From positions 1 to 10,519 of the forward strand of contig CAIJTL010000171.1 in assembly GCA_903823545.1 (NCBI GenBank): a stretch of DNA of 10,519 nucleotides, in the 5' to 3' direction. Position numbers and translations under genes: made by a program. This DNA comes from an uncultured Planctomycetaceae bacterium (GTDB lineage Bacteria; Planctomycetota; Planctomycetia; Planctomycetales; Planctomycetaceae). The notes below the pieces were generated by a model. It did no database searches, had not been told where the DNA came from, and saw nothing but the letters and a program-made list of their open reading frames with translations. This document shows positions 1 to 10,519 of this stretch, piece by piece. Numbering within the stretch: position 1 is the stretch's first letter; every line of letters starts with the position of its first letter.

Positions 1-98
1 AGGCATCTTTAGAATTTCTCGAAAGCGGCAATTGTCTGGCTGCCTTAGACCTGCGTCGACAGCCGCTGACTTGAGCGAGTATGCCGACAAAAACTTGC

Positions 99-127
99 TT
101 GACGGTTGGGCCGAGGAAGATCACTAT
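99..127 (+). promoter_or_regulatory. Putative sigma70-type promoter of mraZ
   Basis: TTGACG at 99-104 matches five of six positions of the -35 consensus. CACTAT at 122-127, after a 17-base spacer, is a weak -10 element that keeps the most conserved A (second position) and T (sixth position). It lies 39 bases upstream of the mraZ ATG and is interleaved with the TGGGN array, so MraZ bound there would be expected to block RNA polymerase. The -10 match is poor and the call is inference. Confidence 0.3.
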
Positions 128-171
128 GGGGGCCAGTGGTTGGTTGTGGGGAAGAGTGGTGACTGATGGCC
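107..171 (+). promoter_or_regulatory. MraZ-box array (TGGGN repeats, 10-bp period)
   Basis: TGGGC at 107, TGGGG at 127, TGGTT at 137, TGGGG at 147, TGGTG at 157 and TGGCC at 167 (inside the start codon) all fall on the same 10-bp register; only the 117 position lacks the motif. Known MraZ operators are direct TGGGN repeats separated by 5-nt spacers, that is one per helical turn, just upstream of mraZ. The spacing and location fit autoregulation by the gene that follows. The two exact TGGGG sites (127, 147), with TGGTT between them, form the best core. The array also contains the GGGGAAGAG Shine-Dalgarno region (148-156), so binding could hinder transcription of the leader as well. Confidence 0.7.
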
Positions 172-627
172 CTGACAGGGACATTTGAGCGATCGCTGGA
201 TGACAAGAACCGGATCGCGGTTCCCAAGCCTCTCCGTGAAGATTTTTCGTTAACAACAACCTCCTCGCCCCCGACTGACGAGGTGATTCAGTTATACGTG
301 GCTCCGGGCCAAGATAAGTCGTTGTCGCTGTACAGCAAAACTGGGTTCGACGCGCTTGCTCAACGCTTGGCTTCGAGTTCTTCAAACCGAGCAGAGGTGC
401 TTAATTTTCAACGATTGCTGTTTTCGCGTGCTGAGAAAGTTGAGCTAGACGGCCAGGGGCGAATTCGAATTCCAGAAAGGCTGGCCGAGTTCGCCCAGCT
501 CAAACGAGAAGTGATGTTATTAGGTGTGCAAGACCACGCAGAAATTTGGGACAAGCAAGTCTGGACGGAGTTTGAACAACGACACGCTGCTCGATTCGAC
601 GAAATGGCTCAAGCGGCCTTCACCTAA
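166..627 (+). CDS. mraZ: Transcriptional regulator MraZ
   Basis: 153 residues, the usual length for MraZ. The family is a DNA-binding repressor or activator of the division/cell-wall (dcw) cluster that forms a ring of subunits, each with two SpoVT/AbrB-like halves. Both half-motifs are visible: residues 6-25 carry FERSLDDKNRIAVPKPLRE, and residues 87-105 carry SRAEKVELDGQGRIRIPER followed by the typical LLGVQDHAEIWDKQVW (118-133). The central segment 31-60 is somewhat extended and Ser/Pro-rich. The ATG at 166 has GGGGAAGAG upstream at 148-156, and the reading frame begins with the expected N-terminal TGTFERSLD, which supports this start. It is preceded by a TGGGN array that fits self-regulation. 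Unusually, it is not followed by rsmH/ftsL but by a structured untranslated stretch and a terminator, so it is an orphan mraZ. Confidence 0.95.
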   Translation: MALTGTFERSLDDKNRIAVPKPLREDFSLTTTSSPPTDEVIQLYVAPGQDKSLSLYSKTGFDALAQRLASSSSNRAEVLNFQRLLFSRAEKVELDGQGRIRIPERLAEFAQLKREVMLLGVQDHAEIWDKQVWTEFEQRHAARFDEMAQAAFT

Positions 628-748
628 AACAATTGAACTCAGAGCCTAATGAAATCGAGAACATCGACTTCACAAGATTGGCGACGAGTTCGAATCGGAA
701 ATGGAATTGATCTTCCGCTGGCTAACCGGGCTGCGGAGATAGGGTGAT

Positions 749-800
749 CACGGACGATCGCCGTGTGAGGTGGGAATGTGAGTGCGTCTGCATTCTCACC
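749..800 (+). promoter_or_regulatory. Two tandem hairpins in the mraZ 3' untranslated region
   Basis: Two inverted repeats stand side by side before the terminator. The first pairs CACGG (749-753) with CCGTG (761-765) around a 7-base loop. The second pairs GGTGGGAATG (769-778) with CATTCTCACC (791-800) around a 12-base loop; nine pairs are Watson-Crick and one is G-U in RNA. Only three bases separate the second from the terminator hairpin at 804. The arrangement could be an mRNA 3' end, a small RNA released from the mraZ transcript, or an independent small RNA. No known RNA family is recognised. The rest of 628-748 shows no gene I can support. Confidence 0.35.
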
Positions 801-803
801 ATG

Positions 804-850
804 AAAACGCCTGGGCCGAAAGGATTCGGACCCAGGCGTTTTCGTTTGTT
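804..850. terminator. Bidirectional intrinsic terminator between mraZ and the DUF1080 gene
   Basis: AAAACGCCTGGG (804-815) pairs perfectly with CCCAGGCGTTTT (831-842). The stem continues as CCGAA (816-820) with TTCGG (825-829) around an AGGA loop, with one bulged A at 830. On the + strand it is followed by a T-rich run (TTTTCGTTTGTT, from 839), and on the minus strand by the A-tract complement. The flanking genes converge here (mraZ rightwards, the DUF1080 gene leftwards, ending at 881), so it probably stops both transcripts. Confidence 0.9.
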
Positions 851-880
851 GATTGGCTGCATTTCAAAAAACTCAAACCA

Positions 881-2083
881 CTATTTCGACGGGCTTGGAA
901 CCGGCGCGCCGATTCGAAGGTTACGAAATTTCACTTGAGTACTGTGGTTTTGCAGGCCAAGGAACCCTTTGAGTTCTCTCAGCTTGATCGCTGGGTGTGA
1001 TTCTGCCGTGATGTCAGTAACGACGACACCGTTATGTCGAGTTGTGATGTGATATCCGTCGCAATTGATTTCCAGAGTATTCCATTGGCCGGCGGGTCGA
1101 GTGTTTCGCGGGTTTGCACCAACGATGTCGTAAATTGACGCGGAGTACTGGAAGTCCTTCAGCTTGGCATATTGCGGATCGGCATCATCAAGCACTTGCA
1201 CCTCGAAACCTGCCGCCGGTTTCGCCTCGTTCTCACGATGATGATTTCCATCTTGTGGAACTCGAACATAAACGCCGCTGTTTCCGCCCGGTGCCAACAG
1301 ATAATCAAATCGCAGGCTGTAATCGCCGTACTCGCAACAACTCTTCAGCCAAGGACCTTTTTGTCCGGTACAGACCAGCAAGCCGTCTTCGACCTTCCAA
1401 CAAGTGTTCGCATCTTGGCCAGCTCCCTCCCAGCCAGAGAAATCTTGTCCATTGAAGAGACTCGAAAACCCCTGTTCAGTGATTTGGAGATTTCGTAGCA
1501 AGAACTGCCCTCCAAGCGGGACCTCCACTTGAATTCCGACGTGGCCAACGGGTTCCTTGATGCCACTAACGGAGTAGGCCAGTCGGCCATTGATAAACGT
1601 CGTGACGCTCTCGCCAATTACCGTAATATCAAAGGCGTTCCACTCGCCAAGTCTCACTAATCCACTGCTTTCGGCTCCTGGAATCGTGCCGATATTCCCC
1701 TCTTTACCCTTGAGTAAATTGGCTTGATATCCTCGTTTCGGAAACGGGGCACCACCGGGAACGGCTCGCAAGTAAATGCCCGCATCGTATTTGTCTTCCT
1801 TGAGTGCTTTCCATTCGATGTGGAGTTTGAAATCCGCATAAACATGATTGGAGCGAAGCCATCCGTTACCGTCTTTCAAGAAGATCATGCCATCTTGAAT
1901 TTCGACTTTGGCATCGTTCTCGACAGTCCAACCGTCGAGCGTCTTGCCATCGAACAACGACGACGTGTAGCCACACTCAACAGGAACAGCCACCGCCCGT
2001 GGTCTCTCAGCGTGAAGGACACTATCAACATTGAAACCACAAAAAGTTGCAATAACGACAGCAGAAAGTAAACGAAGTCGCAT
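881..2083 (-). CDS. Exported protein with two tandem DUF1080 (3-keto-disaccharide hydrolase) domains
   Basis: 400 residues. Residues 1-25 look like a Sec signal peptide (MRLRLLSAVVIATFCGFNV, then a likely cleavage near LHA-E). Two copies of the DUF1080 lectin-like beta-sandwich follow. Domain 1 runs from about 43 (LFDGKTLDGW) to 201 (FLLRNLQI); domain 2 from about 209 (LFNGQDFSGW) to 391 (KFRNLRIG). Both carry the DAGIYLR or GNSGVYVR strand (100-106; 268-274), and domain 2 has FEVQVLDD (293-300) and GFLGLQNHS (373-381), typical of the family. DUF1080 (PF06439) proteins include hydrolases of 3-keto-glycosides and are greatly expanded in planctomycetes; the substrate here cannot be told. The product is probably periplasmic or exported. 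The ATG at 2083 has a GGAGAA Shine-Dalgarno about 7 bases upstream. The 174-bp gap before it suggests its own promoter, but I could not pick one confidently. Confidence 0.88.
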   Translation of the reverse strand: MRLRLLSAVVIATFCGFNVDSVLHAERPRAVAVPVECGYTSSLFDGKTLDGWTVENDAKVEIQDGMIFLKDGNGWLRSNHVYADFKLHIEWKALKEDKYDAGIYLRAVPGGAPFPKRGYQANLLKGKEGNIGTIPGAESSGLVRLGEWNAFDITVIGESVTTFINGRLAYSVSGIKEPVGHVGIQVEVPLGGQFLLRNLQITEQGFSSLFNGQDFSGWEGAGQDANTCWKVEDGLLVCTGQKGPWLKSCCEYGDYSLRFDYLLAPGGNSGVYVRVPQDGNHHRENEAKPAAGFEVQVLDDADPQYAKLKDFQYSASIYDIVGANPRNTRPAGQWNTLEINCDGYHITTRHNGVVVTDITAESHPAIKLRELKGFLGLQNHSTQVKFRNLRIGAPVPSPSK

Positions 2084-2257
2084 GAACTATTCTCCGATAG
2101 ACAATGGTGCCTCAATGGAAACGCCAACGTGATTCTATTCGTGATCGCGGCATTGATTCCAAGCAGTCACCCTACTTGAAGGTTAAGTCCTATCGAATTT
2201 GTGAACCGATTTTCTCCGCGACCAGAGAAATCCAGGGTTCAAACTTGCGGCCCGGGA

Positions 2258-2671
2258 CTATGTTTCGTGGCCACAAAGCTCGGCGAGTCTCGATAACTCA
2301 TCTTCGGCCAAGTGACGGAGAACAGCGTCAGGTTCAGCATCCGGTCGAACATACGCCCAGGCAACAACATCTCCGCTGGGTGTCGAGACGCGTACAGGAA
2401 TTCGGCGATAATCAGGACCGACTAACTCCCCGACGGGAATCTCTTCAAGGTGATCACAACCTTGGAGAGTATGAGAATATGTCGACGGAGTGAGATCGAA
2501 GAGCTCACCGTCAACCACCGAATTCACGTGGCGTGCAATCATTAGCGTTTCAACACGAGCAAACTCTCGTAACTTGGCTGACTGAACTCGATCAAATGCT
2601 CCAGAAAGCAAATGATGATTGCACTCGCCTTGCCGCAGTGTTCCGAAGACGAAGAGAGGAAGTTGGGGCAT
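2258..2671 (-). CDS. Gamma-glutamylcyclotransferase-like (AIG2/GGCT fold) protein
   Basis: 137 residues, normal for the small bacterial GGCT-like family. The N-terminal signature VFGTLRQGECNHHLL (8-22) matches the substrate-binding Y/F-G-(S/T)-L-R-x-G...N loop. VVDGELFDL (52-60) is the conserved V-x-G-E-L-Y/F-D-L strand. The C-D-H-L-E-E stretch (72-77) followed by YRRIPVRV (88-95) matches LDxxE...YxRxxVxV, making E76 the likely catalytic glutamate. Family members convert gamma-glutamyl amino acids or amines to 5-oxoproline, but many homologues have unknown substrates. It is cytoplasmic (no signal peptide). It begins 24 bp after the TPR gene stop on the same strand, so the two are probably one operon. 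The Shine-Dalgarno is weak (CGGAA). Confidence 0.85.
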   Translation of the reverse strand: MPQLPLFVFGTLRQGECNHHLLSGAFDRVQSAKLREFARVETLMIARHVNSVVDGELFDLTPSTYSHTLQGCDHLEEIPVGELVGPDYRRIPVRVSTPSGDVVAWAYVRPDAEPDAVLRHLAEDELSRLAELCGHET

Positions 2672-2695
2672 CGTTGGATTCCGTCGCGAAGAAAT

Positions 2696-3640
2696 TCACC
2701 GGATGGTCACTTCCGCTTCATGCTTTCGCAACTCGTTCGAGAGCTTCTGGAGATCATTATGAAGCTCGTGAAACTTCTTAAGCGATCGCTGAAACTTATC
2801 TTGTGTTGAGAACAGCAGCTTACTGATTTCTTTTGTGCTTTGTTGGACGCCGCGATTGAGTTGGATGACGTCATCTATCACGGCATCACGGAGATGTTCC
2901 ATCATCTGTTGTCCCGTTGATTGGAATTCGACCATCATCCGCCTGAGGATTTGCCGGTCAGCTAAACGTTCCTCTGGACTCAAATTCTTGGGCCGAAATT
3001 CAATTGGAGCCTGTTTAGTTGGTGACTCGGCGACAAGTCGACCAAATGGATTGAAGCTTGCTGCCACCTTGCCCTGCGCTTCTTCAGCACGCTCAAGTCC
3101 ACGTTGAGCTCGAACGAACTTCGGGTTTAAGTCGAGGGCTTTTTTGTACTGCTCAATTGCCGCCTTGGGGTTGTTCATCTCCAGCAAAACGTTGCCAAGA
3201 TTCTGCAATGCGTCGAGCATCTTCGGATTTAGCCTGAGCGCCTCCTTATAGGCGTTTACAGCCATTGGAAACTGCTTAAGCCCCCGGTAGGCAATCCCCA
3301 AGTTGTAATAAGCCTCAACCGCTTTGCCGTCCTTAGCAACGGCTTTCTTGAGCACCTCGGACGCTTTCTGGAATTCTTCTTTTCGGTTGTAGACCGCCCC
3401 GATATTGATGTGCACTTTTGCGTTCGTCGGTTGCAGTTGGGCCACTCGATTAAAGTGCTCAATCGCCAGGTCGTATTGCTTGAGTATGAAGTACGCCATC
3501 GCAACCGCGTCATGAACGTCGGCTTGATCGGGATCGTGTTTCAGTACTCGTTCGAATATAGGAATCGATTCCTGGTATTTTCCCAGTCGAAAAAGTTGCC
3601 GACCTTCCTTAGCGAGTGAGTCAAGATCCGGAGCTGCCAT
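2696..3640 (-). CDS. TPR protein with C-terminal coiled-coil region
   Basis: 314 residues from the start chosen here. An in-frame ATG seven codons upstream (3661) would give 321, but the GGAGGG at 3648-3653 lies inside that extension, seven bases before the ATG at 3640, and is an ideal Shine-Dalgarno for the inner start. About five TPR units occupy residues 8-176, each with the W/L-G-Y-A-F-A-P pattern: examples are EAYYNLGIAYRGLKQFPMAV and DALQNLGNVLLEMNNPKAAI. The link (177-230) has AEEAQGKVAASFNPFGRLV. The C-terminal third is charged and heptad-like (QRSLKKFHELHNDLQKLSN), probably a coiled coil. No signal peptide or membrane segment is seen, so it is probably a cytoplasmic scaffold. Its partner is unknown; the nearest candidate is the GGCT-like protein encoded 24 bp downstream. 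Confidence 0.88.
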   Translation of the reverse strand: MAAPDLDSLAKEGRQLFRLGKYQESIPIFERVLKHDPDQADVHDAVAMAYFILKQYDLAIEHFNRVAQLQPTNAKVHINIGAVYNRKEEFQKASEVLKKAVAKDGKAVEAYYNLGIAYRGLKQFPMAVNAYKEALRLNPKMLDALQNLGNVLLEMNNPKAAIEQYKKALDLNPKFVRAQRGLERAEEAQGKVAASFNPFGRLVAESPTKQAPIEFRPKNLSPEERLADRQILRRMMVEFQSTGQQMMEHLRDAVIDDVIQLNRGVQQSTKEISKLLFSTQDKFQRSLKKFHELHNDLQKLSNELRKHEAEVTIR

Positions 3641-3780
3641 TAGCGAACCCTCCGTCAACATCCTTGTTGAACTCGTTGAAAACGACTTGCACCAATCAAG
3701 TCAACGCGACGGAGGCTACCATCGATCCTTCAATTCAGCCAATCCTATTCTTTCGTTCTTGGCTCGTGCTTCGAGTTGAA

Positions 3781-4296
3781 CTACGCCAAATCTTCGTCTA
3801 ATTCATCCTCGTTTTTGTCATCTTCTGCTAACTCAAATAAGTCCAAAACGTCAATCATTCGTGGCTCTGTAGACGCTTCCCAAGTCAGGCTTTTCGTGAT
3901 GCGTTCCAGCATTAATTGTGTTTCTTCTAGCTCGATATCAGCCCCTTGATAAAACACCAACAGTGTCCCACCGGGAATGACTGCCGCTCGAATAAACGCA
4001 CTTCCAATGAGTTCGTGACACACGAAGTCGACATCTCGTGCAACCGCCGACAGCTCACCCAACTGACCTTCATTTGTGTAGACATCTACGTCCGAATAAT
4101 CTTCACGCAACGCATCAATCACAGTTTCCACGACGCGATACGGATCAGGCCGGTCCAACAACAGTGTGAACGACCAAAAGGACGTTTCTGGACTGTTGAT
4201 GGTGACCGTGATTTCTTCAGGAGTGGATTGCTCATGTAGAATCCAATCTTCGGGATATTCAAAGTGGATGCCATGACGGTCAAAAGCGCGGTTCAT
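3781..4296 (-). CDS. PsbP/DcrB-like small acidic protein
   Basis: 171 residues with no signal peptide. The opening GIHFEYPEDWIL (9-20) followed by alternating strands (EITVTINSP, SFWSFTLLLDRPD) is typical of the PsbP/DcrB/DUF1795 alpha-beta fold, in which a short protein begins with 'F-x-Y-P-x-x-W'. The amphipathic helix TQLMLERITKSLTW (126-139) ends the likely domain. The last 16 residues are strongly acidic (LAEDDKNEDELDEDLA), a tail seen in some planctomycete proteins. I do not recognise a specific function. The start at 4296 has GGAAG about five bases upstream. It is 140 bp upstream of the TPR gene on the same strand; co-transcription is possible but not shown. Confidence 0.75.
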   Translation of the reverse strand: MNRAFDRHGIHFEYPEDWILHEQSTPEEITVTINSPETSFWSFTLLLDRPDPYRVVETVIDALREDYSDVDVYTNEGQLGELSAVARDVDFVCHELIGSAFIRAAVIPGGTLLVFYQGADIELEETQLMLERITKSLTWEASTEPRMIDVLDLFELAEDDKNEDELDEDLA

Positions 4297-4308
4297 GAAG
4301 TCTTCCGT

Positions 4309-4331
4309 GGGTCTTGAGACCCCCTGGGGGT
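4309..4331. promoter_or_regulatory. Two overlapping inverted repeats in the leader of the 4296 gene
   Basis: GGGTC-TTGA-GACCC (4309-4322) overlaps the odd palindrome ACCCCC-T-GGGGGT (4319-4331). They share the CCC block, so as RNA the two hairpins would be mutually exclusive. They lie 13 bases upstream of the minus-strand start at 4296, in the divergent region shared with the + strand gene at 4453. A possible minus-strand promoter lies just upstream (TTGCCA, complement of 4356-4361; CTTAAT, complement of 4335-4340; spacer 15). An operator or a leader switch are both possible; this is inference. Confidence 0.3.
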
Positions 4332-4388
4332 TCGATTAAGGTAACTGCTGTGTCGTGGCAAATTGGATTGTGATTAAGCACCAAACTC

Positions 4389-4428
4389 AAGGCCCTCGAT
4401 CATCGCGATTCGGTGGCCTTTCTTTGTT
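4389..4428 (+). promoter_or_regulatory. Leader hairpin with T-rich tail before the ATL-like gene
   Basis: AAGGCC (4389-4394) pairs with GGCCTT (4415-4420) across a 20-base loop and is followed by TTTCTTTG. This resembles a weak terminator or attenuator in the 5' leader, about 25-60 bases before the start at 4453. The stem is only six pairs and the loop is long, so it may be chance. Confidence 0.25.
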
Positions 4429-4452
4429 GACTCATGAGGAGAATGAAAAAAG

Positions 4453-4824
4453 ATGGCAACAACACGTGCCGAAGAAGTGGCTGAGCTTTTGTGGGAGTTA
4501 AAGCGGGCTTCTAAACTGGCGAAGTATACTATCGTCGCCAAGCGAGCTGGTTTTAGCGCCGGAGTGAATGGCAAGGCGATGGAAACTACGCTGCGGACAG
4601 TTCGTCGCGATTGGCCGCACCTTCAATGGTGGCGAACGATTTCCGACTCGATCACGATCGACAAGGATTCGGAACAAGCGAAGAAGCTGGCTGAAGCCGG
4701 AATTGAATTGAAAGCTGGCAAAGACAACACCGTTACGCTCGCAGCTCCCGAAGAGTTGCTGATGGAATGGCCGGAAGAACCAGCTCCGGCTCCAGTAACA
4801 CCTGAAGCTGCTGATAGCGAGTGA
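4453..4824 (+). CDS. Alkyltransferase-like (ATL/MGMT C-terminal fold) protein without catalytic cysteine
   Basis: 123 residues. Residues 8-88 follow the DNA-binding domain of O6-alkylguanine-DNA alkyltransferases: EVAELLWELKR (8-18, first helix), KYTIVAKRAGFSAGVNGKAM (24-43, equal to YGxVAxLAGxPxxARxVGxA), then HLQWWRTISDS (56-66) in place of the active-site PCHR or, in ATLs, PWHRVIxSxG, and EQAKKLAEAGIEL (74-86) equal to QxxLLxxEGV. There is no cysteine anywhere, so it cannot accept an alkyl group. Known ATLs bind alkylated guanine and recruit nucleotide excision repair; the same role here is inferred. The tail (104-123) is Pro/Ala/Glu-rich. GAGGAGA at 4436-4442 is the Shine-Dalgarno; an ATG at 4443 is out of frame and closes after 13 codons. 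It stands alone, with a terminator directly after it. Confidence 0.65.
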   Translation: MATTRAEEVAELLWELKRASKLAKYTIVAKRAGFSAGVNGKAMETTLRTVRRDWPHLQWWRTISDSITIDKDSEQAKKLAEAGIELKAGKDNTVTLAAPEELLMEWPEEPAPAPVTPEAADSE

Positions 4825-4864
4825 CGCGGTTGAGTTACCTTCAACGCGTGTCGAAAGAATTAAA

Positions 4865-4896
4865 CAAGCCCGGCAATTGCCGGGCTTGCTCTTTTC
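4865..4896. terminator. Bidirectional intrinsic terminator, perfect 24-bp palindrome
   Basis: CAAGCCCGGC (4865-4874), loop AATT, GCCGGGCTTG (4879-4888): a 10-bp GC-rich stem that is a perfect palindrome over 24 bp. CTCTTTTCT follows on the + strand. On the minus strand it is followed by TTTAATTCTTT. It sits between convergent genes, 40 bp after the ATL-like gene and 66 bp before the end of the minus-strand TPR gene. Confidence 0.92.
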
Positions 4897-4961
4897 TGTG
4901 GCCGGAAAAATCCATTTGATTTCATCGACGACAATTTCTAAGACTTCGCATTGCTTTTGAA

Positions 4962-6932
4962 TTATCGAAATGTACCCGCAAAGCACTCCGCAGCTTTGGC
5001 AAGGTTTCCGGTTCGTTCGTATGCCGCCCCCATCAGCCGAAGTACCGAAGTGCGATCGACATCGGCATCGAGATGCAGCAATTCTTGGCAGATGTCGAGG
5101 CACTCTTGTTCGTGATGTTGCGAAAGTTCCCAATTCGCCATTGTCAGTGTTGCGGCGAATGACCATGGCGACTGTTTGGCTTCACGAACACTTGTTAGCA
5201 ATGCAAGCCCCTCTTGCTCATCACCGATCGACAGCAAGTACTTCCCGAGTGTGGCTTTCATCTCCGATGCATACGGCTCACGAACACTTTTTGACAAAGC
5301 TTGTGAGTAAACCTCGGCCATCTCTACGCCGAGGTTTACTTTGACATACGCTCGGCCAATCAAAGTGCGACCGCAGTCACCAAGATAAGGAGCGTCAGGA
5401 TTCAAGTTTGCCAAGGCGCGTAAGAGGAACAGCGTTTCGCGATCGCGAGAATCTGTTGACTCAATTGTCTCAAGCCGAGCCAGTGCGACAACAAGTCCGC
5501 CGAGCGTTCGTGCCGCTTCTTTGGTGATGCGATCGCGTCGCTGAAACATTGCCTTTGCCGCAACGTCTTGCTTGCGCGCCTGAAGGAACGCCATGCCCAT
5601 GAAGGCTGTGGCCCAACTTCGCTCATCTTCAGTATTCGAAATATCTGCTGCTCGCTTCAAGTCGTAGGCCGCCTGCTCGACGTTCCCCAATGCAATTGCG
5701 GCTCTTCCACGCAAAATCAACGCGGGAACGACCAATCCATGTCCGGGGGCACCATCAACGACTTTACCAAGCGAAGTCACCGCTGAAGCAAGGTTTCCAC
5801 CTTGAAAATGAATCACCCCGCTGTTGTATGCGGCAATTAGAGAAACGGTGTCTGATGACTTCGACATCACTTTTTCAAAACGTGATGCCGCAGAGTCCGT
5901 ATCGCCGCGTTGAAATGCGAAATGCCCCAATGCCAACTTCGCATGTCCGACCAAACGGTGGTGCGGCGCGGATTTAATTTGTTCCTCTAAGAATCCCTCC
6001 GCCTCAATCTCATTTGTTACCGAAACAAAATCGAGAACAGGATTTGGATCGTCATCGCGTGGATTCTGGGGAGTTGCTTCGCTCGCTTCTGGTGTACCAG
6101 CAGTTGGTGAATCTCCGCCGCCAATGTTGCTTGGATTAAACGGTGAAATTCCCTTCCACGCGATTTCAGACAGTGGCGAGATTGGGGAGGGCGTCTCCAA
6201 TACATCACTCTGGGAGGCTGCATTTTGCAGCCAAGTCATCGCTAGAAAAATGCGAGCATCTTGGCCGATCTCTGATGGTGCCGCGTTTATGGGGACTGTC
6301 GACCGGCATAATTGGCGAAACACCTCGCGAGCGTGCTGATGCTCCTGTTTCGCGAGCCAGATTCTTCCCTGAGCCAACAAAGCGGCAGATCTTAACGGTG
6401 AATGATCTCGAGCCGAGAGTTCGCGGTACTCGACGAGTGCCTCGTCGATCTGGCCAAGCGATTCGCGGCAGAGTGCAATCTTGAAGGCGACTTCTTCGGA
6501 GTGTCGCAAGGACTCGACGGTTTCGTTCGATTGGTAGAGTTGCAGCGCGAGTCGGAATTCTCTGGCTCGAAAGAATTCGTCCGCTTTTTGCCGGTTCCGC
6601 CGAGTCCGCTCGACGGCAGCGGCATCATCGCGGGTTGGGTTCTCTTTATGTTTTGAATTTGTGTGTGTTGCTGCGGCAGCGGCAATCGCTGCTCGGCGAG
6701 CCATTCCGATACCCAGCCCGAGAGGAAGGGTACCGACGATGGCGAGTGCGATCGCAAATAACGGTAAAGCGCGACGTGGGGCGGTTGGCGAATCAGTTGA
6801 GGTCGGGGTTTCTGCGGCAACAGCTGGTGGCGAGGCAATTGCTGGAGTTGGAGATGGTACTTTCGCAACGACAGGAGCCGAAGGTTTCGGCGTCGGAGCG
6901 GAAGTTGGTGATGAGTGAGAGTGAGCGGACAT
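4962..6932 (-). CDS. Membrane-anchored TPR protein
   Basis: 656 residues. Residues 1-53 are a Pro/Ala/Ser/Thr-rich low-complexity segment. A single hydrophobic helix follows (ALPLFAIALAIVGTLPLGLGIGMA, about 55-78), flanked by arginine pairs on both sides (52-53, 79-80), so topology cannot be fixed. A charged linker (92-115) leads into TPR-like helix pairs over about 114-210 (ADEFFRAREFRLALQLYQ; ALCRESLGQIDEALVEYRELS). A Pro/Gly/Ser-rich gap (245-300) separates these from a second solenoid (325-656; KLALGHFAFQRGDTDSAASRFEKV, YNSGVIHFQGGNLASAVTSLGKVV, LRLMGAAYERTGNLAKAAECF). The protein is probably a scaffold for protein-protein contacts at the cytoplasmic membrane; its partners are unknown. 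The start at 6932 has only a weak AAGG upstream. It is divergent from the FlgM-like gene, 128 bp apart. Confidence 0.85.
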   Translation of the reverse strand: MSAHSHSSPTSAPTPKPSAPVVAKVPSPTPAIASPPAVAAETPTSTDSPTAPRRALPLFAIALAIVGTLPLGLGIGMARRAAIAAAAATHTNSKHKENPTRDDAAAVERTRRNRQKADEFFRAREFRLALQLYQSNETVESLRHSEEVAFKIALCRESLGQIDEALVEYRELSARDHSPLRSAALLAQGRIWLAKQEHQHAREVFRQLCRSTVPINAAPSEIGQDARIFLAMTWLQNAASQSDVLETPSPISPLSEIAWKGISPFNPSNIGGGDSPTAGTPEASEATPQNPRDDDPNPVLDFVSVTNEIEAEGFLEEQIKSAPHHRLVGHAKLALGHFAFQRGDTDSAASRFEKVMSKSSDTVSLIAAYNSGVIHFQGGNLASAVTSLGKVVDGAPGHGLVVPALILRGRAAIALGNVEQAAYDLKRAADISNTEDERSWATAFMGMAFLQARKQDVAAKAMFQRRDRITKEAARTLGGLVVALARLETIESTDSRDRETLFLLRALANLNPDAPYLGDCGRTLIGRAYVKVNLGVEMAEVYSQALSKSVREPYASEMKATLGKYLLSIGDEQEGLALLTSVREAKQSPWSFAATLTMANWELSQHHEQECLDICQELLHLDADVDRTSVLRLMGAAYERTGNLAKAAECFAGTFR

Positions 6933-6939
6933 GTTGACC

Positions 6940-6968
6940 TTGACCCATATTTAGTGCCGGGCAACTAT
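6940..6968 (+). promoter_or_regulatory. Putative sigma70-type promoter of the FlgM-like gene
   Basis: TTGACC (6940-6945), 17-base spacer, AACTAT (6963-6968). This has the same architecture as the element proposed upstream of mraZ (TTGACG, 17 bases, CACTAT). The -10 keeps only the central A and final T of the consensus. It lies about 92 bases upstream of the start at 7061, within the divergent 128-bp gap. Confidence 0.25.
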
Positions 6969-7060
6969 GCCCCGCTTTTTGAACAAAGCAACTGGTTTGA
7001 AAAGTCGCCGCACAGAATTCGAAGCGACGACATGACTCAGCATGAGGTCGGGAGATTGCG

Positions 7061-7363
7061 ATGCGCATTGATGGCGAATCCTATGGATCACCGCTTTTTG
7101 GTCGCCGACCGGTTCGTCCGGGGGCCACTGGCGGAAGTCGACGTACGTCGTCTCCCTCGCAATCTTCGTCAACATCTTCGGCAAGTGCTTCGCGTGAGAA
7201 CACTGAATTGAAAGCTCGATTGGGCGAGCTACCTGAAGTACGGGCTGATGTCTTAGAAGATGTTCGGCAGCGACTACATCGCGGCGAGCTACTAACTCGC
7301 GAAGCCGCTGAGGCGACAGCAACGGCGATCCTTTCCGACTTGCAGGCATTCTTGCGCCTGTAG
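7061..7363 (+). CDS. FlgM-like anti-sigma factor candidate
   Basis: 100 residues, close to the usual FlgM length. Residues 1-46 are Ser/Arg/Gly-rich and probably disordered. Residues 57-92 (LPEVRADVLEDVRQRLHRGE, then LLTREAAEATATAILS) fit the FlgM C-terminal pattern V-R-x-x-x-V-x-x-(L/V)-(K/R)-x-x-(I/L)-x-x-G-x(4-6)-A-x-x-(I/L)-A. FlgM binds the flagellar sigma factor FliA (sigma28) through such helices and is otherwise unfolded. GGGAG at 7050-7054, six bases upstream, supports the ATG. No flagellar gene is visible in the window; the next gene, 142 bp downstream on the same strand, encodes the giant surface repeat protein. The family call rests on a short motif, so an unrelated helical protein is possible. 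Confidence 0.5.
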   Translation: MRIDGESYGSPLFGRRPVRPGATGGSRRTSSPSQSSSTSSASASRENTELKARLGELPEVRADVLEDVRQRLHRGELLTREAAEATATAILSDLQAFLRL

Positions 7364-7419
7364 CGGTGTTTCCGATTCACCGCGACTTACTCCGTAATTT
7401 TTCATCCACTTGACCCCCG

Positions 7420-7444
7420 TTGCGACACAAGTCTCATGTCGCAG
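7420..7444 (+). promoter_or_regulatory. Hairpin upstream of the giant repeat gene
   Basis: TGCGACA (7421-7427) and TGTCGCA (7437-7443) form a 7-bp stem with a 9-base loop, plus an outer T-G wobble. No T-tract follows, so it is not a standard terminator for the FlgM-like gene. A TTGACC at 7410-7415 with TCTCAT at 7432-7437 (16-base spacer) could be a promoter for the repeat gene overlapping the hairpin, which would then act as an operator. Both ideas are weak. Confidence 0.25.
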
Positions 7445-7505
7445 CTTCGACTCCTGATTCGCGTCGTCGGATCTTTGAGGGCTCGAAGTTTCGGGAGTCT
7501 TGAGC

Positions 7506-10500
7506 ATGCTGAGTTTTTTCCGCAGCCGTGGTTACTTTGAGAGTCTGTGGACCAGCCTAAAAACTTCGTCGTTACGGCGGCGGAGCAAACGACGCCATGC
7601 CACACACCTCACATACAACGGAGGTGCTCCCGAAGCGGCGCAACTCCTCGAAGATCGATGCTTACCTGCATTCGGCGTTGCTTTTTCTTCAGGAGTGCTG
7701 ACTCTCACCGGGACAGCAGCAGCCGATAACGTCGAGGTCACTGCCGGTGTTTCATCAACAACGGTCAAAGTAGGCGGCAAGCTGTACACGACAATCTCGT
7801 CGGCAAACAGCAGTAACCTGACTTCGGTGAGCTTTAATGGCGGTGCTGCCGCCGACTCCTTAAAGGTCACCGGCACCAGTGGCGATCTAGCGATTGCTCT
7901 GACCGCCGCTGAATCCGTGGCCGCCACAACGGCCGCGACAAAAGACCTCACAATTACCTCGAACAGTGCAACAGCCCTTGGCGTTATCACTGTCGGCGGC
8001 GACTTATCTGTAACACCGTCTGGCGCGGTGACGAATACCGGTAAGTTGACGGTGACTGGTACGACGACGATTTCTGCGGGAGCGAATGATATTACGTTGG
8101 GGACGTCGACCAACGCCTTTACGGCGGCGTTAATTCTGAGCGGTAAGAACGTCACTGTGGCGGCGACGGGGGCGGTGAATTTTGGGGCGACGACGGCCAC
8201 GGGAAATCTGGCGGTCACCTCGACGGGGGCGATCACCGATAGCGGGACACTGACAGTGACCGGAACCACAACGCTCAATGCCGGCAGCACGGCGATCACC
8301 TTGGATGAAGCCTTGTCCGCGTACACCGGCGCGATCGGTGTCACGGGGTCGTCTGCGACGATTACCAATTCTCGCGCCACGGTCTTGGGTGTTTCCACGT
8401 TGTCGGGCGCGTTGACGGTCACTCCGAACGGTGCCGTCACAAATACAGGGAAACTCGCCGTTGGCGGAGTGACCACGATTGATGCGACTGGCTTCAATCT
8501 CTCGCTGAGCAATTCCACCAATGTCTTCACAGGCGCGTTGGTGCTCAAAGGCATCAACGTCACCATTGGTGCCACGGGAGCCGTCAATCTCGGTGTGATC
8601 ACCGCCACTGGCAACTTGGCGGTCACCTCCACTGGGGCGATCACCGACAGCGGAGATTTGACTGTCACCGGGACCACGACACTCAACGCCGGGACCACTG
8701 CGATCACCTTGAATCAAGCCGGTTCCGCCTTCACGGGAGCCATCGGCGTGACCGGCTCAAACGCCTTGATCACGAACACTTTGGCTACCGCTTTGGCCGC
8801 ATCCACATTGACCGGCACCTTGACTGTTGCCCCTGGTGGAGTAGTCACGAACACCGGCAGGCTGTCGGTCGGTGGGACCACCACGATTGATGCGGGAACC
8901 GACAACATCACACTCGGAACGGCGACCAATGCCTTCACGGGGGCCTTGATCCTGAGCGGAAACAACATCACCGTCGCGGCGACCGGGGCCATCAATCTGG
9001 GTGTGACAACGGCTGACGCCAATTTGTCCGTCACGTCGACCGGAGCGATCACCGATAGTGGCACCATCACGGTCGCCGGAACCACCACTTTGAACTCAGG
9101 CAGTGCGGCAATCACTCTCGACCAAGCCGCCTCTGAATACACGGGCGCGATCAGCTTCACGGGATCAAACGCCGCCGTCTTGAACACCGCCGCCACGGTC
9201 CTCGGGGTCTCGACTCTGACAGGTACGCTCGCCGTCACTTCCACCGCTGGTGACGTGACAAACACCGGAAAGGTCAGTGTCACAGGGACAACGACGGTCA
9301 ACGCCGGAGCCAATGACATCACGCTGGGGACTTCGACGAACGTCTTCGGTGGAGCATTGGCGTTGACCGGCGACGCCATCACCGTCGCCGCGACCGGAGC
9401 CGTCAAACTCGGTGTCATCACCGCTGCGACCAATCTCTCAGTCACGCCGACGGGCGCTGTGACCAATACGGGTAAACTGACTGTGGGTGGAACAACGACC
9501 GTGAATGCCGGAGCCAACGACATTACCCTGGGCACTTCGACAAATGCGTTGACTGGTGCCGTTTCTCTCACCGGAAAGAACGTGACCCTCGCCGCGACCG
9601 GGGCCGTCGACTTAGGGGCCTCGACGGTCTCTGGAAATTTTGTCGTCACGTCAACGGGCGCGATCACCGACAGCGGCAACCTCGCCATCACCGGGACAGC
9701 GACCTTGAACGCTGGCAGCGTGGCCATCACGCTGGATCAAGCCGGTTCGGCCTTCACGGGTGCGATCGGAGTCACTGGCTCCAACGCCGCGATCACCAAT
9801 TCACGGGCCACGATTCTGGGGGTCTCAACTCTCTCCGGAACGTTGAGCGTCACTCCGACCGCAGGTGCGGTGACGAACACCGGAAAACTGGCCATCACCG
9901 GCACGACGACCATCAACGTCGGAGCCAACGACATCACGTTGGGAACCACCACCAACGCCTTCACCGGCGCTCTGATTCTGACGGGCCGCAACATCGCCGT
10001 CGCGGCCACGGGAGCCGTGAACCTCGGTGCGACAACCGCCACGGGAACCTTGGCGGTCACCGCCACGGGTGCCATCACCGACAGCGGAAGCATTACTGTC
10101 ACCGGAGCCACGACCTTGAGCGCGGGAACGGCGGCAATCACGTTGGATCAAGCTGGTTCCGCTTTTACCGGAGCGATCGGCGTGACGGGCTCCACCGCCA
10201 CGATCACCAACTCCATCGCGACAGTCCTTGGTGCCTCGACCCTGACGGGCAACTTCGTCGTCGATCCCGGCGGTGCTGTGACCAACACCGGAAAGCTCGC
10301 CATCACGGGCACGACCACCATCGACGCCACTGCGGCGAACATCACTCTTGGTGTGACCACCAATGTCTTCACCGGAGCCCTCGTCCTCACCGGCGGAAAC
10401 ATCACCATCGCCGCCGCCAGCGCCATCAACCTCGGTGCCACAACCGCCGCTGGAAACCTCGCCGTCACTTCCACGGGTGCTGTCACCGACTCCGGTGATA

Positions 10501-10519
10501 TCTCCGTCACCGGCACGAC
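7506..10519 (+). CDS. Giant repetitive surface protein with LEDR-type N-terminus (3' end outside window)
   Basis: The frame is open for 1004 complete codons and runs off the window. The ATG at 7506 has GGGAG at 7493-7497 and an in-frame TGA at 7476-7478 just upstream, so it is the only ATG start in that frame. Residues 23-31 are basic (LRRRSKRRH), followed by LLEDRCLPA at 47-55. This resembles the LEPR-XLL N-terminal motif of very large planctomycete extracellular proteins, thought to be an export or sorting signal. Residues 63-125 (GVLTLTGTAAADNVEV; VSFNGGAAADSLKV) look like degenerate G-x-D calcium-binding-type strands. From residue 174 the chain is made of 68-residue Thr/Gly/Ala/Val-rich modules, with cysteine absent from the array. 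The strand-turn rhythm (about 22-23 residues, three turns per module) suggests a right-handed beta-helix like filamentous haemagglutinin-type adhesins. Likely surface adhesin or matrix protein; the function is inferred. Confidence 0.85.
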   Translation, partial: MLSFFRSRGYFESLWTSLKTSSLRRRSKRRHATHLTYNGGAPEAAQLLEDRCLPAFGVAFSSGVLTLTGTAAADNVEVTAGVSSTTVKVGGKLYTTISSANSSNLTSVSFNGGAAADSLKVTGTSGDLAIALTAAESVAATTAATKDLTITSNSATALGVITVGGDLSVTPSGAVTNTGKLTVTGTTTISAGANDITLGTSTNAFTAALILSGKNVTVAATGAVNFGATTATGNLAVTSTGAITDSGTLTVTGTTTLNAGSTAITLDEALSAYTGAIGVTGSSATITNSRATVLGVSTLSGALTVTPNGAVTNTGKLAVGGVTTIDATGFNLSLSNSTNVFTGALVLKGINVTIGATGAVNLGVITATGNLAVTSTGAITDSGDLTVTGTTTLNAGTTAITLNQAGSAFTGAIGVTGSNALITNTLATALAASTLTGTLTVAPGGVVTNTGRLSVGGTTTIDAGTDNITLGTATNAFTGALILSGNNITVAATGAINLGVTTADANLSVTSTGAITDSGTITVAGTTTLNSGSAAITLDQAASEYTGAISFTGSNAAVLNTAATVLGVSTLTGTLAVTSTAGDVTNTGKVSVTGTTTVNAGANDITLGTSTNVFGGALALTGDAITVAATGAVKLGVITAATNLSVTPTGAVTNTGKLTVGGTTTVNAGANDITLGTSTNALTGAVSLTGKNVTLAATGAVDLGASTVSGNFVVTSTGAITDSGNLAITGTATLNAGSVAITLDQAGSAFTGAIGVTGSNAAITNSRATILGVSTLSGTLSVTPTAGAVTNTGKLAITGTTTINVGANDITLGTTTNAFTGALILTGRNIAVAATGAVNLGATTATGTLAVTATGAITDSGSITVTGATTLSAGTAAITLDQAGSAFTGAIGVTGSTATITNSIATVLGASTLTGNFVVDPGGAVTNTGKLAITGTTTIDATAANITLGVTTNVFTGALVLTGGNITIAAASAINLGATTAAGNLAVTSTGAVTDSGDISVTGT
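8025..10519 (+). repeat. Alternating A/B tandem array of 204-bp (68-residue) coding modules
   Basis: Module starts are: B 8025, A 8229, B 8433, A 8637, B 8841, A 9045, B 9252, B 9456, A 9660, B 9867, A 10071, B 10275, A 10479 (cut by the window end). A modules begin AITDSG and contain TTTLNAG, TLDQAGSAFTGAIGVTGSNA and ATVLGVSTL. B modules begin AVTNTGKL and contain TTTINAGANDITLGTSTNAF, GALILTG and ITVAATGAVNLG. A and B align to each other in the same register (both have TGTTT, FTGA and LGV/LG positions), so B and A are themselves diverged copies. Lengths are 204 bp except the A modules at 9045 and 9660 (207 bp, one extra residue at the A/B junction). A degenerate A-like copy probably precedes 8025, since residues 155-173 end ATALGVITVGGDLSVTPSG. 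Confidence 0.93.

Follow-up and report, generated by a model that had tools for sequence, protein, structure and literature searches.

How is the long repeat protein encoded at the end of this locus organised, what might it do, and why does the order of its repeats, which otherwise alternate, break once? The DNA analysed, referred to here as the window, is a stretch of 10,519 nucleotides from an uncultured Planctomycetaceae bacterium, and it represents the entire contig C171 of a fragmented genome comprising 1707 contigs. The repeat ORF starts, probably, at the ATG at position 7506, and is still open at the contig end (Table 1).

Two alternating classes of a DUF5649 module

The ORF comprises a leader, an N-terminal region and 13 modules of about 68 residues, 12 of which are complete, in the order ABABABAABABAB, with anchor spacings of 68-69 residues between modules. 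The self-similarity of the protein peaks at lags of 136 residues (43% identity) and 68 residues (38% identity), which bears out the nested 68/136-residue repeat proposed in an earlier note made from the sequence. The strict alternation of A and B modules with one exception, proposed in the same note, is also borne out, as 11 of the 12 pairs of neighbours alternate and modules 7 and 8 form the single A-A pair (p = 0.0075 against shuffled module order). The limits of the array differ from those first proposed: it begins at about 7941-7956 and not at 8025, and the modules number 13, the last one being cut by the contig end.

Table 1. Features of the window, with coordinates in nucleotides
Feature	Coordinates	Strand	Basis or remark
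MraZ gene	166..627	+
Gene of a 656-residue TPR protein	4962..6932	-	divergent from the repeat gene
100-residue ORF, weakly FlgM-like, just upstream of the repeat gene	7061..7363	+	sub-threshold FlgM (anti-sigma-28) matches
ORF of the repeat protein	7506..10517	+	1004 residues from ATG; runs off the contig
Basic N-terminal leader, ending in LEDRCLP	7506..7667	+	planctomycete export-type by resemblance
N-terminal cap region, about 96 residues	7668..7955	+	model: beta strands, zero helix
Module 1, type A	7956..8159	+	PF18886 match 7941-8138
Module 2, type B	8160..8363	+	module alignment and PF18886
Module 3, type A	8364..8567	+	module alignment and PF18886
Module 4, type B	8568..8771	+	module alignment and PF18886
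Module 5, type A	8772..8975	+	module alignment and PF18886
Module 6, type B	8976..9182	+	module alignment and PF18886
Module 7, type A	9183..9386	+	probable end of first seven-module block
Module 8, type A (exception)	9387..9590	+	probable start of second seven-module block
Module 9, type B	9591..9797	+	module alignment and PF18886
Module 10, type A	9798..10001	+	module alignment and PF18886
Module 11, type B	10002..10205	+	module alignment and PF18886
Module 12, type A	10206..10409	+	module alignment and PF18886
Module 13, type B, first 36 residues only	10410..10517	+	module alignment and PF18886

Among the 12 complete modules, the mean identity is 63% for A-A (21 pairs), 75% for B-B (10 pairs) and 45% for A-B (35 pairs), and single pairs range from 32 to 82%, so the modules are imperfect copies. 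The two classes exhibit different core residues (V/I, I/L-F, V/A and L/A) in a comparison of 43 of 62 modules (23 A and 20 B), which were sorted by hand after the tree described below, so that these differences are partly circular. Beyond the nearest relatives, the alternation scored from motifs is weaker: 60 of 103 scored neighbours in 20 ORFs differ, against 44% in shuffled order (p = 0.0004), and 45 of 87 neighbours differ in the 17 ORFs that are left without three near-copies (p = 0.011). We also considered module 8 as a hybrid, with its first seven residues B-like (0.80 vs 0.19) and the remainder mostly A-like. This candidate was dropped, as the start AATGAV is shared by modules 8 and 9, each of which comes after an A module; the head of a module goes along with the module before it, and the apparent hybrid is thus an effect of where the units were cut.

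All 13 modules match the Pfam family PF18886 (DUF5649), with 548.6 bits and an E-value of 8.3e-169 for a curated cut-off of 25 bits; the 13 matches in the contig are all above this cut-off, and the best stretch covers positions 1-68 of 68. The module therefore belongs to a named family, contrary to the earlier note, which recognised none. A full-length match to an existing repeat family largely refutes the reading of the module as unnamed, although Pfam lists this family as repeats of unknown function. With regard to other databases, NCBIfam yielded nothing for the repeat protein, and a sequence search of the PDB yielded nothing relevant (best E-value 0.24 for the protein, no match for the profile). 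Among 59 genomes sampled from relatives, DUF5649 is present in 18, and a sample of 294 genomes across the phylum has it in 17 (14 of them above the cut-off), with the window's own genome included in both counts; it has no match in 14 control genomes. Our literature search, whose coverage leaves out most subscription journals, yielded a single paper that names DUF5649 (PMC8286594) and, in the titles and abstract openings covered, no account of the internal organisation of DUF5649 arrays.

The leader carries a net charge of +8 over its first 40 residues and has no clear hydrophobic core; of all 15-residue stretches among the first 70 residues, the most hydrophobic one begins as late as residue 53. 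By eye, it exhibits the motif LEDRCLP, an LExR-type motif that we take to be of the planctomycete leader type. PF07595 (Planc_extracel) has no match in the N-terminus of the window protein and a sub-threshold match in the ortholog L074 (17.9 bits, cut-off 25.5 bits). Helped by the latter, we read the leader as a putative planctomycete export leader. The first 150 residues of the protein have matches, mostly weak ones, in each of 12 genomes from the genus, the window's own among them.

Judging by the ortholog L073, about 1.5 modules and the C-terminal end appear to be absent from the window ORF. The same genome encodes a second DUF5649 protein (L023), on the minus strand of contig C875; this protein is open at both contig ends, and its modules give way to a different, beta-repeat-like sequence. 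We judge, without claiming proof, that the rest of the window gene does not lie on this contig, whose modules belong to a different type (with the anchors AQTQ, TQSA, TQSA and TQAG) and which runs on into other sequence.

Relatives, probable blocks of seven modules and the single A-A pair

The complete ortholog L073 (the same stretch of genome G004 as L053) is collinear with the window, 70% identical, and exhibits 14 modules followed by a stop. The complete orthologs L075 and L074 comprise 14 and 21 modules, respectively, and in all three proteins the stop comes directly behind the last module, where it follows a conserved end consisting of GxPVTV and one more residue. L076 is a copy that is 92% identical in its best segment and is cut at a contig end. 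When the C-terminal end of L075 was used as query on 170 genomes of the family, some match was obtained in 21, including L084 and L085, which have 14 modules each. Similar ends were found in one other genus on much longer arrays: L087 with 64 modules (ORF of 4543 residues), L086 with 48 (3464 residues) and L088 with 35 modules found in 36 slots (2650 residues). In L087 (positions 1021-14649, genome G344) and L086 (positions 27-10418, genome G345), the modules are 64-71 residues apart, and the leader and the C-terminal end are of the same kind. For other arrays of the window's genus, the number of modules found ranges from 8 to 20. Compared with the window, the N-terminus scores 198 bits in L073, 120 in L084, 110 in L086, 100 in L074, 96 in L085, 94 in L075, 92 in L087 and 78 in L088, and the modules score, in the same order, 105, 86, 75, 77, 71, 88, 76 and 67 bits. 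By these two measures, the giants L086 and L087 and the orthologs L074 and L085 appear to lie at about the same distance from the window.

The FlgM-like ORF is kept beside the repeat gene in L073 and L076 (72% and 88% identity), as is the TPR gene (39% and 69%, respectively); neither has a match at the other loci tested. These neighbours say little about how the protein works. Elsewhere in the window, the MraZ gene adjoins a 3-keto-disaccharide hydrolase gene on the opposite strand. Cell-division genes often come after mraZ, and, given this neighbour, the usual ones are not beside it here.

A tree was built on 61 of 62 modules, with the partial module 13 dropped; as the alignment has few columns, many of its forks are open. 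The modules of four genomes nevertheless sort into separate A and B clades (support 98/89 for A and 97/89 for B), and most of the L074 copies cluster among themselves. As the clades span four genomes, the A/B split is old, which supports the order of events given in the earlier note, a split followed by amplification of the pair. At four-fold degenerate third positions, the identity between window modules is 0.34 for A-A, 0.38 for B-B and 0.31 for A-B, with 0.31-0.32 in codon shuffles. Between the window and L073 it is 0.38, where 0.33 would be expected, and 76% of the first 600 residues are identical. Synonymous sites near saturation, together with residues that are 63-75% identical within a class, point to old copies whose residues have been kept by selection. 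Recent homogenisation of the copies was considered as well and is unsupported by the codon test, in which the B-B excess is slight (p = 0.017).

The alternation is accompanied by a raised identity between modules two apart. For 10 of 13 proteins (all but L074, L058 and L066), and for 4 of 7 further ones, this identity exceeds that of shuffled order (p < 0.05); several of these proteins are orthologous to one another, and all p values given here are uncorrected for multiple tests. The anchor motif shows hardly any alternation in L086 and L087, in which lag 2 is still raised. A further similarity, absent from the earlier note, is observed between modules seven apart, that is, at about 476 residues. 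Compared with shuffled module order, the lag-7 identity is 0.716 vs 0.556 in the window, 0.595 vs 0.492 in L073, 0.744 vs 0.463 in L074, 0.616 vs 0.503 in L075, 0.564 vs 0.472 in L084 and 0.454 vs 0.392 in L085, with p values of 0.0003-0.009. In L074, identity is high at lag 14 as well (0.66, compared with 0.74 at lag 7 and 0.46 in shuffled order).

Where copies of a seven-module block that begins and ends in A adjoin, each joint contains exactly one A-A pair; in the window, this pair is that of modules 7 and 8. The seven-module block is likely a third level of repetition, one that would explain the single A-A exception, and the break may be the joint of two such blocks. In L073, module 8, which occupies the same place as this joint, is strongly diverged.

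Alternatively, unequal crossing-over could have removed one B module from, or added one A module to, an otherwise strictly alternating array, which would give the same exception with no block at all. We regard this as possible but doubtful. An odd shift of any size, by exchange between copies, would leave one A-A neighbour, and lag 9 exceeds lag 7 both in L073 and in the window, where the values are 0.74 and 0.72 and where lag 7, with the A/B classes fixed, gives only p = 0.034, so that the signal is weak in the window alone. Furthermore, the module numbers of L086, L087 and L088 do not fit sevens. Against a single loss or gain stand the 14 modules of L073 and L075 and the 21 of L074, in which position-specific modules recur exactly seven apart (6/13/20, 70-77% identical, and 7/14, 81% identical). 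L084 and L085, which were found later, again combine 14 modules with an elevated lag 7. In total, five of eight complete genes have multiples of seven (14, 14, 14, 14 and 21, vs the three giants), although the four counts of 14 are perhaps one number inherited by descent.

The block of seven is proposed for part of the group only. Among other proteins with enough pairs, the lag-7 signal was seen in none of six in a first set and in one of five in a second set, namely L087 (p = 0.036); the other giants gave p = 0.40 (L086) and p = 0.55 (L088). Since L086 and L087 stand about as near to the window as do L074 and L085, we do not extend the block to all close relatives.

Predicted fold of the module

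The column profile of the modules, based on the 145 of 181 modules that have fewer than 8 gaps, exhibits a peak at 10 cycles per module (z 4.2) and a second one at 7 cycles (z 2.8), with z 0.4 at 9 cycles. The ten-cycle peak is observed in each class (z 4.6 for 20 A modules, z 2.0 for 19 B modules). When the profile is examined by shift, 20 residues gives z 3.4, 22 residues z 1.2 and 23 residues z -1.6.

Two AlphaFold2 models were obtained. The first, covering residues 55-422 of the window protein and based on 11 sequences, has a pLDDT of 97.3 and a pTM of 0.92; the second, covering modules 5-11 across the A-A joint and based on 5 sequences, has a pLDDT of 96.2 and a pTM of 0.90. Neither contains any helix. 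Counted by eye, with two-residue strands included, ten separate strands are present in modules 2 and 3 of the first model and in modules 5, 9, 10 and 11 of the second, which makes 6 of the 11 modules modelled; one or more of the ten are just two residues long. In the 5 others (1, 4, 6, 7 and 8), DSSP merges neighbouring strands. This merging is strongest at the A-A joint, and even so the model of the chain is confident there. All 15 aliphatic columns lie within the ten strands of modelled module 2. The module is accordingly best described, as a prediction, by ten short strands in an all-beta solenoid, which would amount to about 3 1/3 turns of 20.4 residues if three strands make one turn, the turns and the handedness being putative. 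The ten cycles of the profile, and the ten strands where these are resolved, do not agree with the three beta-helix coils of 22-23 residues suggested in the earlier note.

Foldseek gave no significant fold match, the best E-values being 0.034 and 0.13 in the PDB and 0.005 among viral models, with TM-scores of at most 0.42 among the matches listed. Many of the weak matches are beta-helical (HxuA, EtpA and RsaA), and ribosomal and leucine-rich chains are also present. Confident models of this kind must be read with care: AlphaFold2 is known to yield confident but unreal beta-solenoids for perfect repeats, and methods agreed for four natural families with diverged repeats, according to the available text of PMC11795689. 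This bias is a serious caution; the repeats studied here, though, are diverged like those of the four natural families.

It is improbable, in our assessment, that the solenoid is an artefact and that the repeat forms a flexible, low-complexity (mucin-like) chain of Thr, Ser, Ala and Gly. Besides the bias of the method and the lack of a significant Foldseek match, the composition (23.5% Thr, 15.8% Ala and 14.5% Gly) would suit such a chain. However, modules that share 32-82% identity are not perfect repeats, the tenfold periodicity is visible in the sequence without any model, the aliphatic columns coincide with the strands, and the residues have been kept while synonymous sites drifted.

Possible function and relation to known systems

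Based on these observations, the reading that we favour, with modest confidence, is that of an exported surface rod made almost wholly of DUF5649 repeats, whose length has grown stepwise, including by blocks of seven modules. As a kind of protein it would be ordinary, and a recognised adhesive or anchor domain is absent: in the complete orthologs L074 and L075 (the window gene itself being cut), only DUF5649 is above the Pfam cut-off, hence no adhesive domain is recognised, and no surface anchor was found in Pfam; an adhesive domain or an anchor of a novel kind may be present. Export, location, the function as a stalk and block duplication as an event are what we infer.

The basic LExR-type leader would send the protein out of the cytoplasm, and the N-terminal region would cap and nucleate the beta-solenoid, to which each 68-residue module would add its ten short strands. 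The result would be a stiff, nearly uncharged stalk rich in Thr, Ala and Gly and roughly 20-35 nm long, closed by the short conserved C-terminal end. At a beta-solenoid rise of 0.48 nm per turn, the computed length is about 22 nm for 14 modules and about 34 nm for 21. With regard to the copy number, a single module may have diverged into A and B, after which the A/B pair would have been amplified; the odd block of seven would then have been duplicated in at least part of the group, with three blocks in L074, each duplication leaving one A-A neighbour at the joint. A bolder version of the model, to which we give little credence, is that of a naked rod in which the non-integral 3 1/3 turns would shift the start of every module by one face of a three-sided solenoid, the A and B modules would act as alternating packing partners, and length in one branch would change in steps of about 11 nm, or seven modules, in the manner of a molecular ruler.

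That the protein is instead a distant TpsA (two-partner secretion) or filamentous-haemagglutinin adhesin, exported through a dedicated outer-membrane pore, is very unlikely: its coils, at about 20 residues, are similar in length to the FHA repeats, which have at least 19 (PMC3756990, available text), and HxuA and EtpA are its top PDB fold matches, but these matches are not significant, the leader is of a different type, no Pfam match to a TPS domain or haemagglutinin was found in the window protein, L074 or L075, and none of the 7 window ORFs has a TpsB-like match. PF03865 (TpsB) has no match in the genome of the window; this shows little, as that genome is about 88% complete and the control genomes, too, have no match.

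The exported rod that we favour can be compared with several known systems. It would share with the TpsA adhesins EtpA and FHA the long, secreted beta-helical rod, here a predicted all-beta solenoid with no significant fold match, and large repeats of several turns, those of EtpA comprising 228 residues and nine turns (available text of PMC10284417). In contrast, EtpA and FHA have a TPS domain and a TpsB partner, and their repeat sizes differ. The stalks of bacterial fibrillar adhesins are also built from tandem domains, and DUF5649 is on a published list of such stalk domains, among those not found with a known adhesive domain in the available text of PMC8286594; the protein studied here differs in having neither a recognised adhesive domain nor a recognised surface anchor. 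The proposed block of seven has a counterpart in a eukaryotic muscle protein, nebulin. Nebulin expands by seven-module blocks (PMC1553488, available text); no sequence kinship is claimed, and A/B alternation is not implied. With regard to PF18886 itself, the likeness is a full-length tandem match of the 68-residue module, whereas the family line mentions no A/B classes, seven-module block or function. To this unexplained Pfam repeat, the present analysis gives a concrete anatomy, with ten predicted strands, two alternating classes, a leader, an N-terminal region and a conserved C-terminal end, as well as a testable growth history, and the arrays with similar ends and 14 to 64 modules offer a natural series on the evolution of rod length in bacteria.
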